The translations under genes and the position numbers were made by a program. Of a stretch of 64,000 nucleotides of DNA, positions 22,760 through 26,732 are shown one piece after another. This DNA is from Alteromonas naphthalenivorans (GTDB lineage: Bacteria > Pseudomonadota > Gammaproteobacteria > Enterobacterales > Alteromonadaceae): positions 4,402,001 through 4,466,000 of the forward strand of contig NC_015554.1 in the NCBI RefSeq assembly GCF_000213655.1. Direction: 5' to 3'. Every line of letters starts with the position of its first letter. Position 1 is the first letter of the stretch. A model generated the notes under the pieces. That model was not told the DNA's origin and did no database searches. It saw only the letters and a program-made list of their open reading frames with translations.

Positions 22760-23081
22760 GGGTTCCTCAGCCTGCTGATTTATGACCCAACCTGCTGCAT
22801 TATGCATCGCGACGAGTGCTTCAAGCTATGAGCTTCGTGTTGAATTGCGCATAAGCAACAAACTTCCACAACCCTTTTTCGGGGCAATTCCACAGCATAC
22901 AACAAAATTTAACCAATTATTAGTTAACTTGTTGGTTTTATGCTTTTATGTGTAATTTCCGAGGTGCGCATTTAGTAGTGTAGTCAAGGGTTAGAATCTA
23001 CACACTGTACAGCGCAAAAAGGCTGGTGGTTTAAAAAACCACCAGCCTTGCCGTCTCAGGCAAATAATCTAAACAAATAGA
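22760..23081. other. rplL-rpoB intergenic region
   Basis: These 322 bp contain the attenuator-like hairpin at 23016-23047 and an AT-rich leader in front of rpoB. In E. coli this gap holds an attenuator and an RNase III site; only the former is evident here. No ORF is supported. Confidence 0.6.
23016..23047 (-). terminator. Attenuator between rplL and rpoB
   Basis: A perfect 12-bp stem (GGCTGGTGGTTT, 23021-23032, and its complement 23036-23047) with a 3-nt loop is followed on the minus strand by five T residues, directly after rplL. Because rpoB has no obvious separate promoter, it most likely terminates only a fraction of transcripts. Confidence 0.85.
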
Positions 23082-23456
23082 TTACTTAACTTCAACTTCA
23101 GCGCCAGCTTCAGTTAGCTGTGCTTTAAGTTCTTCAGCTTCTTCTTTGCTTACGCCTTCTTTGATAGCTTTAGGAGCAGATTCAACTACTTCTTTAGCTT
23201 CTTTAAGACCTAGGCCAGTCGCTGCGCGAACTGCTTTGATTACTGCAACTTTGTTTGCGCCGAATGAAGTCATTACAACGTCAAACTCAGTCTTTTCTTC
23301 AACTGCTGCTGCTTCGCCCGCTGCTGGACCAGCTACAGCTACTGCTGCAGATGCGTCAACACCGAATTTTTCTTCAGCTGCTTCGATAAGCTCAACCAAT
23401 TCCATAACTGGCATTTCAGCAATCGCGTTTAAGATATCTTCTTTAGTTAGAGCCAT
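23082..23456 (-). CDS. rplL: 50S ribosomal protein L7/L12
   Basis: This 124-residue L7/L12 stalk protein starts [20 protein letters not shown]. It has the Ala/Glu-rich hinge ([20 protein letters not shown]) and the C-terminal domain with [20 protein letters not shown] and KEAKEVVES. Dimers bind L10 and recruit translation factors. It is separated from rplJ by 59 bp and followed by a strong hairpin that would set the ribosomal-protein to polymerase ratio. Confidence 0.97.
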
Positions 23457-25036: not shown

Positions 25037-25465
25037 TTAGTCCTCTACGTTCAAGCCCATTGAGCGAGCAGAACCCGCGATAGTGCGAACCGCTGCATCT
25101 AGGTCAGCTGCAGTTAAGTCTGGTTCTTTAGTTTTGGCGATTTCTTCCAACTGAGCGCGAGTAACAGTACCCACTTTTTCAGTGTTAGGACGGCCAGAAC
25201 CGCTCTTGATGCCCGCTGCTTTCTTAAGCAGGTAAGACGCAGGAGGAGTCTTAGTTTCGAATGTGAAAGAACGATCTTCATAAACCGTAATTTCTACAGG
25301 TACCGGAGCACCTTTCTCAAGGCTATCTGTTTTTGCGTTAAACGCTTTACAGAATTCCATGATGTTCACACCGTGTTGACCTAGTGCAGGACCAACTGGT
25401 GGACTTGGGTTAGCAGCGCCTGCTGCAACCTGAAGCTTAATAATACCGCTTACTTTTTTAGCCAT
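25037..25465 (-). CDS. rplK: 50S ribosomal protein L11
   Basis: This 142-residue L11 protein has the N-terminal Pro-rich [19 protein letters not shown] and the C-terminal rRNA-binding [10 protein letters not shown] end. It organises the GTPase-associated centre and is needed for RelA activation. It is the first gene of the rplKAJL-rpoBC transcription unit and has a near-consensus promoter about 90 bp upstream. Confidence 0.98.
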
Positions 25466-25555
25466 TTTAAATGCTCTCTTGTTTGGGTATAGCGCCTTGC
25501 AAGTACAGAGATTACCTGCTCAATCGGCTTCCCGTTTCCGTTTAAAAGGGCGCGC

Positions 25556-25584
25556 ATTATATAAGGTGTTCAAATGGTATGCAA
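25556..25584 (-). promoter_or_regulatory. rplK: Sigma-70 promoter of rplKAJL-rpoBC
   Basis: On the minus strand TTGCAT (25579-25584), a 17-bp spacer and a perfect TATAAT (25556-25561) are followed by a GC-rich GCGCGCCC discriminator. It faces away from the divergent microcin-like gene at 25713. Confidence 0.85.
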
Positions 25585-25674
25585 GCATAAATGTGACTAA
25601 AAAACGATCTCATGGCCAGTTTTATTAAATATTCAGGGTTGTCAAAATTAACTCGGCTTTGGTGTAAGTTGCAC

Positions 25675-25703
25675 TAAGCCTTAATTTTAACAAATAAGGC
25701 TTA
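25675..25703 (+). promoter_or_regulatory. Hairpin in front of the microcin-like gene
   Basis: A perfect 9-bp inverted repeat (TAAGCCTTA, 25675-25683, with its complement 25695-25703) surrounds an 11-nt loop and ends 9 nt before the ATG at 25713. Its right arm contains the only AAGG that could serve as a ribosome-binding site, so folding could hide it. Regulation is inferred. Confidence 0.5.
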
Positions 25704-25712
25704 TTTAATACT

Positions 25713-25853
25713 ATGAGAGAACTAATCGAATTAAACAAAGAAGAAGTGTCCCAAGTGTCTGGAGCGTTGTGGGGAGTTGGAGGGGGTGTGGCTTCAGGTG
25801 CAATTGTCAACGTACTTTCAGACGCCGAAGATGCAGCGACAACAGATGAATAA
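25713..25853 (+). CDS. Microcin-like peptide with double-glycine-type leader
   Basis: A 46-codon gene starts at ATG 25713 and ends at TAA 25851-25853. The first 18 residues, MRELIELNKEEVSQVSGA, match the leader pattern of class II microcins: MRE/T-L/I, an N-E region, then V-S-G-G/A before the cleavage site of peptidase-domain ABC exporters. Microcin V, L and related peptides share this pattern. The mature part would be 28 residues, rich in Gly and small residues (GVGGGVASGAIVNVL), able to form a membrane helix, and ending in an acidic DAEDAATTDE tail. The gene is too short for routine gene callers and lies against the direction of the rpl genes. No peptidase-type ABC exporter or HlyD-like gene is nearby. 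Secretion and toxicity are inferred. Confidence 0.62.
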   Translation: MRELIELNKEEVSQVSGALWGVGGGVASGAIVNVLSDAEDAATTDE

Positions 25854-25858
25854 AAAAA

Positions 25859-26053
25859 ATGGAACATGCCACTAAATTTCTAGTCTGGATGATTTGCCTT
25901 ATCATAGTCAACTTCATTTTAAAGCGCGCTTTGAATGTCGGATTTTGGGACTCTTTTAGTAGTAGCAATAAAATATCCCAAAACACGAGCCTAATTCTGC
26001 AATTTCTATTTTCATTTTTTGCTTTTTTGAGCGTGTTTGTGTGGGTGAATTAA
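25859..26053 (+). CDS. Small membrane protein, candidate immunity protein
   Basis: This 64-residue protein begins 5 nt after the microcin-like stop codon. It has two likely membrane helices (FLVWMICLIIVNFIL, about 7-21, and LILQFLFSFFAFLSVFVW, about 45-62) separated by a polar loop with FSSSNKISQNTS. Small two-helix proteins directly downstream are typical of class II microcin immunity genes. No clear ribosome-binding site precedes the ATG; the A-rich gap suggests coupling to the upstream gene. The protein belongs to no family I recognise, so the immunity role rests on position, size and topology. Confidence 0.5.
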   Translation: MEHATKFLVWMICLIIVNFILKRALNVGFWDSFSSSNKISQNTSLILQFLFSFFAFLSVFVWVN

Positions 26054-26130
26054 CAATCTGTTTTTTACAAAAAAAGAAGTAATGATGTTTCACCCATTAC
26101 TATCTGAATAACACAAAAGCTCCTCATACA

Positions 26131-26156
26131 AAAAAGCCCCTATTAAGGGGCTTTTT
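26131..26156. terminator. Bidirectional terminator
   Basis: AAAAAGCCCC (26131-26140) pairs with GGGGCTTTTT (26147-26156) around TATTAA. It serves both the plus-strand microcin-like pair and the minus-strand nusG transcript. Confidence 0.9.
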
Positions 26157-26183
26157 TATGAACTTAGAGGTAGATAAAAAGAC

Positions 26184-26732
26184 CTAGCCTTTTTCTACCT
26201 GTCCGAATTCTAAATCTACCGGTGTAGAACGACCGAAGATAAGTACCGACACTTTTACGCGGCTCTTTTCGTAGTCTACTTCTTCTACCACACCATTGAA
26301 GTCTGCAAATGGACCGTCTGTAACGCGAACCACTTCGCCTGGCTCGAACAATGTCTTCGGCTTAGGCTTATCAACTGACTCTTCAAGACGGTTAAGAATG
26401 GCGTCTGCTTCTTTTTGGGTAATTGGCATTGGGCGGTCAGAAGTACCACCGATGAAACCAAGTACACGAGGAACGCTTTTCACTAAGTGCCAAGATTCTT
26501 CGTTCATTGCCATTTCTACCAATACGTAACCTGGGTAGAATTTACGCTCAGATTTACGCTTTTGGCCAGCACGCATTTCAACAACTTCTTCAGTCGGAAC
26601 TAGAATCTGACCGAAGTGCTCTTCCATGCCGTGCATCTTGATATATTCAAGTAGCGTTTTTTGAACGCGGCCTTCGTACTGAGAATATGCTTGTACTACG
26701 TACCATCTTTTTTTAATTTCTTCTTCAGACAT
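26184..26732 (-). CDS. nusG: Transcription termination/antitermination protein NusG
   Basis: This 182-residue NusG starts with the NGN domain ([20 protein letters not shown]), has the [10 protein letters not shown] segment, and ends with a KOW domain ([32 protein letters not shown]). It binds RNA polymerase and couples it to Rho or to ribosomes. It sits 3 bp after secE, the conserved arrangement. It is separated from rplK by 718 bp because of the inserted plus-strand gene pair, whereas this gap is usually short in gammaproteobacteria. Confidence 0.98.

Follow-up and report, generated by a model that had tools for sequence, protein, structure and literature searches.

Is the 46-codon gene between rplK and nusG in Alteromonas naphthalenivorans a new, naturally short microcin, or is it what remains of a longer one? 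The DNA that we analysed (the window) is a stretch of 64 kb from a genome available as a single contig (G000; 4.97 Mb, 100% complete). Within the window the gap between rplK (25037..25465, minus strand) and nusG (26184..26732, minus strand) covers 718 bp (25466-26183) and holds two plus-strand open reading frames (ORFs) of interest. The first one (25713..25853) starts with ATG and lies on the strand opposite to rplK and nusG. Its product of 46 residues consists of an 18-residue leader ending in Gly-Ala (GA), MRELIELNKEEVSQVSGA (25713..25766), and a core of 28 residues, LWGVGGGVASGAIVNVLSDAEDAATTDE. By the GG/GA rule given in the excerpt of PMC10233263, cleavage by a C39 peptidase is predicted after Ala18. 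The first-pass annotation had reported this ORF, its class II microcin-type leader and its orientation, all of which are present in the sequence. It had also described the gene as an orphan with an unusual acidic core and a presumed toxin function, and for those points the comparison with other genomes gave a different answer.

To find full-length homologues we searched 59 Alteromonas genomes with the 100-residue protein of genome G012. G077 carries a homologue of 100 codons at the same locus. The DNA alignment of G000 and G077 spans rplK to nusG and contains a single large gap of 162 bp, which is in the window; all other gaps are small (1-8 bp). The 162 bp correspond to exactly 54 codons; on one side of the missing block is the Trp-Gly that follows the leader, on the other the tail with its Val-Gly-Gly-Gly. 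The junction lies at 25775..25776 in the alignments with G077 and with the A. lipotrueae genome (G032), and the DNA alignment shows no clear direct repeat there that would account for the deletion. The window gene has kept the leader and the last 25 residues (25776..25850), which are acidic and end in TTDE, and it has lost the greater part of the Gly-rich core. A naturally short microcin was therefore rejected, and we describe the gene as an internally deleted microcin precursor gene. The 28 residues following the leader are indeed acidic, as had been noted (net charge −5), and contain 18% Gly. They are not a natural core, though, but a remnant of a precursor of about 100 residues, and the acidic tail that had seemed unusual for a bacteriocin is the ordinary C-terminus of the full-length relatives.

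Further full-length relatives were found in G012 (75% identical to G077) and in G028, G016, G029 and G027 (39-43%). All six aligned full-length proteins (100-104 residues) have the middle that the window gene lacks, and 18 of the 25 columns that are invariant in this alignment fall inside the deleted part. As every aligned full-length relative keeps this part, the short form arose from the long one. The conservation of the leader in relatives had been proposed as a check, and the leader is conserved at the locus in G077 and G012 as well as in the database protein P0008. The latter came from a search of a large protein database, which gave 31 matches, with scoring limited to the 7,994 candidates that had most words in common with the query. 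P0008 (100 residues, 7 member sequences) is the closest intact relative among the scored candidates and contains the missing middle. By hand count 45 of the 46 residues retained in the window are identical in P0008; the local alignments to the window protein cover 38 retained residues, 37 of them identical. The short form occurs a second time in P0001 (5 member sequences), with the same junction, on a contig of 1,569 bp. Its first six residues differ from those of the window protein, and it could come from the same strain. Database relatives such as P0023, P0024, P0029, P0032 and P0033 are among the entries that are shortened or altered; they look like more damaged or cut copies, and assembly errors are possible.

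The copy in G032 is broken in a different way, having lost its start, most of the leader and another internal stretch. This damage is separate from that in the window, so at least two such events have hit the gene among close relatives. Judged by the sequence comparison, the deletion in the window is recent. For the retained toxin codons we found dN = 0.039 and dS = 0.24 between G000 and G077, against dN = 0 and dS = 0.15 for nusG. These values bear on the codon constraint that the first-pass annotation had asked about; the divergence since the deletion is too small to judge selection on the 46-codon form. A deletion has a one-in-three chance of being in frame, so that the kept frame is by itself no evidence of selection.

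The second ORF of interest (25859..26053), which the first-pass annotation had passed over, starts 5 bp past the microcin stop, so the gene is not an orphan. This ORF is intact and encodes a candidate immunity protein of 64 residues. Two of its segments, residues 7-25 and residues 45-63, are hydrophobic and predicted to be transmembrane by Kyte-Doolittle hydropathy only. Its homologues in G077 (89% identical) and G012 (45%) also lie directly behind the microcin. Matches to the immunity family occur in all 11 gaps that hold microcin or immunity sequences, the one in G082 being partial and weak (E = 7e-4). In the excerpts of PMC9746304 and PMC10233263 the immunity proteins of class II microcins have the same kind of size, position and membrane helices, and the 64-residue protein is likely the immunity partner. 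Between G000 and G077 the gene is constrained (dN = 0.053, dS = 0.48). Between G000 and G032, in both of which the toxin is broken, the first 48 immunity codons differ by three nonsynonymous and one synonymous change (dN = 0.026, dS = 0.036), and in G032 the C-terminus is frame-shifted. These differences are too few to judge; they give no sign of selective keeping, and plain decay in progress fits equally well.

Immunity-type genes also occur apart from a toxin elsewhere. The gap of G018 holds one with no microcin. In G012 an extra protein of 112 residues is encoded at gap positions 860-1198 (within L114); it is 95.5% identical to the protein behind the two-peptide microcins of G016. G012 lacks those two-peptide microcins, and its 112-residue protein is a possible orphan immunity protein.

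We also inspected the signals around the two ORFs. No Shine-Dalgarno-like sequence of its own was seen for the immunity start in GATGAATAAAAAAAATGG, which makes coupled translation of the immunity gene plausible. Ahead of the microcin start a 9-bp inverted repeat spans an AAGG (25675..25703, plus strand) and is predicted to form a hairpin. The folding energy of 70 nt was −9.8 kcal/mol in the window compared to −5.0 kcal/mol in G077 (z = −1.72 and 0.22, respectively), and the 70-nt folding predicted no hairpin over the upstream AAGG in G077. The hairpin might lower translation of the window gene, as these modest folding values hint. At the convergent ends of the microcin operon and nusG an A-run, a stem-loop and a T-run resemble a terminator by eye (26130..26157, no strand assigned), and terminator prediction near nusG returned the minus-strand version alone (26149-26137).

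Taken together we consider it very probable that the window carries a putative toxin gene, inactivated by an in-frame deletion, whose undeleted precursor was of the class II microcin type and had about 100 residues; next to it is an intact candidate immunity gene that is probably co-translated. The 162 bp that were deleted encode the first of the predicted hydrophobic stretches as well as the glycine-rich middle. With both of these gone the window allele is most likely inactive, and the toxin function that had been proposed for it is unlikely. The cell may still synthesise the shortened product, cleave off its leader and export it, most likely as a non-toxic peptide. As the reading frame is kept, the stop codon still lies 5 bp before the immunity start, and coupled translation could go on. 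In that case the cell would no longer make the toxin itself but could still withstand strains that do, such as those of the G077 type. In the full-length relatives a C39 machine would export the peptide and remove the leader after Gly-Ala; the target would be the inner membrane of related bacteria, and the putative two-helix immunity protein would shield the producer.

Several other explanations were weighed against this one. The short form might be a working minimal peptide, with the C39-exported core of 28 residues acting as a small bacteriocin. Start, leader and tail are intact, the short allele is found on a second contig (P0001), and part of what is retained is hydrophobic (mean hydropathy 1.41 over residues 17-35). 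In the excerpt of PMC10233263, however, the cores of the ten verified class II microcins measure 60-90 residues, 18 of the 25 invariant family columns were lost with the deletion, and a second lineage damaged the same gene differently. We thus regard a minimal bacteriocin as improbable. It is very improbable that the leader and tail serve as a decoy or signal, competing for the exporter peptidase or for a reader of TTDE and so damping the other microcins of the cell. The kept parts are exactly those that are common to the other two microcin-like genes of the cell, but the shortened gene has been seen as a single allele, and the deletion is so recent that selection cannot be read from it.

Two further explanations concern the reality of the gene itself. 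Our sample contains one genome per species, and the deletion could in principle be a sequencing or assembly artefact in a strain with a full-length gene. This seems very improbable given that the same junction occurs on the separate contig of 1,569 bp (P0001) and that the window genome is one contig and 100% complete. A chance ORF with a chance leader was also considered. A regular expression for the leader pattern matched one ORF in the window, which is the 46-residue ORF, and the same expression found a match in 10 of 100 versions of the window that had been shuffled with dinucleotides preserved, so the leader motif taken alone is weak evidence for the gene. The expectation by chance is nevertheless far exceeded, because homologues occupy the same locus in other genomes; they are full-length and conserve frame, start, stop and partner gene. 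Same-locus homology rules out a chance ORF, whose probability we regard as negligible.

We then compared the inactivated gene and its relatives with known systems. In the excerpts of PMC10233263 and PMC9746304 class II microcins have leaders of 15-18 residues ending in GG or GA, precursors of 75-120 residues and immunity proteins of 51-216 residues. The window leader agrees with these values (18 residues, GA end), and so does the adjacent small protein in size and place (64 residues, 5 bp downstream), its protective function being putative. Core and precursor, with 28 and 46 residues, are too short. A C39-peptidase ABC transporter with a fusion protein exists in the genome; it is not close to the microcin, though, as the C39 domain is about 75 kb away. 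The Gly/Ser-rich C-terminal attachment region of the siderophore-bearing class IIb is lacking, the tail being acidic (...EDAATTDE). The system resembles class IIa microcins (V, L and N type) in its double-glycine leader, its Gly-rich core with no siderophore-type tail, the small membrane protein directly downstream and the combination of a C39 ABC exporter and a membrane fusion protein in the genome. It differs from them in the exporter lying about 75 kb off instead of adjacent, in the window core of 28 residues instead of 60-90 and in the host genus, which is Alteromonas and not Enterobacterales. The full-length family probably works like class IIa microcins. The window gene itself is not one, because its core is too short.

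With the Pfam model MccV (PF17508) the relatives reach 10.8-13.3 bits (cut-off 27) and the window protein gives no match. No Pfam or NCBIfam model reached its cut-off for the tested microcin and immunity proteins (the NCBIfam set left out G077, P0008 and the other two microcin-like proteins of the cell). The microcin family appears to be new, yet of the known class IIa-like type. A plasmid-borne family was rejected after a tblastn search of 72,556 plasmid records with the G077 microcin and with the immunity protein gave no matches. A different likeness is seen in G016, G029, G034 and G076, which hold two adjacent short double-glycine peptides in the manner of Gram-positive two-peptide bacteriocins (Bacteriocin_IIc, PF10439). 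The pair of G029 scores 18.0 and 19.7 bits with that model, under the cut-off of 27.1, and the second peptide scores higher with the unrelated TraT model (24.7 bits, also under the cut-off). Unlike the PF10439 bacteriocins these peptides have a Gram-negative host, and they belong to a different family from the window gene. Finally, an immunity-type gene beside a broken or absent toxin, as in the window, in G018 and perhaps in G012, recalls the orphan bacteriocin immunity genes. The immunity gene of A. lipotrueae is unlike them in that it is itself decaying, and the genes described here are putative immunity genes.

The first-pass annotation had seen no dedicated exporter nearby and had suggested to look for a C39-type exporter elsewhere in the genome. 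Such an exporter is present. The window genome contains two Peptidase_C39 matches, neither of them inside the 64 kb, and the strong one (PF03412, 124 bits, positions 1-132) is at C1:4352033, about 75 kb from the 46-codon gene. The C39 domain contains ECGLAC, HFVV and HDP, which by eye are the putative catalytic Cys, His and Asp motifs. The cluster (L028, 8724-13742) encodes a fusion protein of 416 residues (HlyD-type as read by eye), the C39 ABC transporter of 751 residues, a LuxR-type regulator of 103 residues, a GG-motif precursor of 74 residues and an ATP-grasp protein of 305 residues. The precursor ends in PVYITLAIGEDGGQLPDLLS, and this end is conserved across species. The ATP-grasp protein scores 104 bits with TIGR04187 (cut-off 350) and is above the cut-off of RimK (PF08443). 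From its gene content the cluster is perhaps an undescribed modified-peptide locus. As candidates for a TolC-type outer-membrane factor the window genome has 22 matches to the OEP domain.

A C39 match that we call strong (E below 1e-30) is present in 57 of the 59 Alteromonas genomes; the other two are G006, with no match, and G018, whose match is weak. In 19 genomes rplK and a strong match are on one contig, and the distance between them is 57-92 kb in 18 of these, the exception being G072. Among 14 other genomes inspected around a strong C39 match, nine have the whole cluster including the precursor (G077, G082, G032, G076, G080, G016, G029, G023 and G066), in G012 and G028 all cluster genes except the precursor were seen, G001 has the fusion protein, the ABC transporter and the LuxR-type regulator only, and G034 and G010 have a different locus type. 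Loss of the exporter can be rejected as the cause of the decay, because broken microcins (G000, G032) and an intact one (G077) coexist with the same C39 cluster. We infer that the exporter of this cluster would handle the gap microcin. The dependence on an unlinked exporter that had been predicted is thus supported as regards the existence of the exporter, while its handling of the microcin is a conjecture.

To follow the TTDE tail we used a DNA pattern that encodes Thr-Thr-Asp-Glu and ends with a TAA or TGA stop (TAG stops fall outside the pattern). In the window genome all three sites end double-glycine-type ORFs: the window gene, an ORF of 79 residues (C1:657898, minus strand) and one of 99 residues (C1:2187237, minus strand), with cores that look unrelated. 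Behind the 79-residue ORF there is an ORF of 66 residues with hydrophobic stretches, and behind the 99-residue ORF one of 60 residues that is of a similar kind by eye. The pattern written backwards, used as a control, has no match in this genome. Across the genus we found 62 matches in 42 of the 59 genomes, compared to 88 for the backwards control, and as a genus-wide marker the DNA motif was not supported; because the control exceeds it, the motif is informative only together with a leader. We inspected 59 of the 62 matches: nine end short ORFs flagged as double-glycine and 50 are mostly very short frames or the ends of long proteins. Among the nine, the four ORFs of 79 residues were flagged at an internal start, yet they carry the leader at the true N-terminus. 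The remaining three matches are the known microcins of G016 (C155) and G029 (C66) and the remnant in G032. The tail is also absent from the ends of some relatives (G028, P0012, P0017, P0018 and others). Divergent double-glycine peptides ending in TTDE were seen in L232 (1501-1740, minus strand), L233 (1501-1800, minus strand), L010, L083-L085 and L225.

Perhaps there are scattered microcin-immunity pairs, several with a C-terminal TTDE tail, that are served by one core exporter. A more far-reaching form of this idea, to which we give only a small chance, is a dispersed cartridge system: pairs with unrelated cores would each stand by themselves at permissive chromosomal sites (the rplK-nusG gap here, positions beside rpsQ or rplN in two other genera of the family) and would all depend on a single conserved core C39 exporter. 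The TTDE-like tail that several of them have would be a common handle, which the exporter or a receptor recognises or which the ATP-grasp ligase might even modify. The window allele would then be a leader and a handle with no cartridge.

The gap itself proved to be a variable site. rplK was found in 57 of the 59 genomes and the length of the gap was measured in 56; in G013 there is no nusG within the 15.8 kb fetched. The gap ranges from 204 to 10,280 bp (204-267 bp in 19 genomes and 509-10,280 bp in the remaining 37), which does not agree with the normally tight cluster that had been assumed. Of the 56 gaps, 11 contain sequences of these microcin or immunity families. Seven have intact microcins, either a single peptide (G077, G012, G028) or two adjacent peptides of 71 and about 81 residues (G016, G029, G034, G076), three have broken microcins (G000, G032, G082) and one has the immunity type only (G018). 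The gap of G010 encodes another short peptide with a GG motif. Other cargo, as read by eye from the translations, includes mechanosensitive-channel-like, GGDEF-type and serine-hydrolase-like proteins and an iron-ABC-like set. In the wider family a microcin profile matched in 9 of 295 genomes including G000 and G028, the match in G000 being its second microcin-like gene and not the window gene. In other genera of the family a microcin-like gene adjoins rpsQ in G155 (L223) and rplN in G093 (L225), with gene names taken from the translations.

Our literature search, which covered titles, the starts of abstracts and a few passages outside the subscription literature, returned no description of class II microcins of Alteromonas and no report linking Alteromonas bacteriocins with rplK or with double-glycine. 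In the part of PMC6361997 that we consulted, antiSMASH bacteriocin clusters are mentioned for two A. stellipolaris strains (data not shown). In the excerpts of PMC8749424 and PMC8960797 microcin is a word in the reference list only, and in that of PMC11928666 the mention concerns Nif11 peptides and microcins in general.

Two points are of wider relevance. A leader-first reading of raw sequence can lead one to see a new short peptide in what is left after a deletion, and comparison at the same locus settles the identity. The gap is also a small natural record of the gain and loss of a toxin, with empty, intact, broken and immunity-only states among congeneric species. As these states coexist, it becomes testable in marine bacteria whether immunity outlives the toxin for a reason. 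Elsewhere in the window we observed a match to the Rfam family P26 (RF00630) at 23020-23076 on the minus strand (42.5 bits), directly downstream of an rplL-like ORF (23082-23456).
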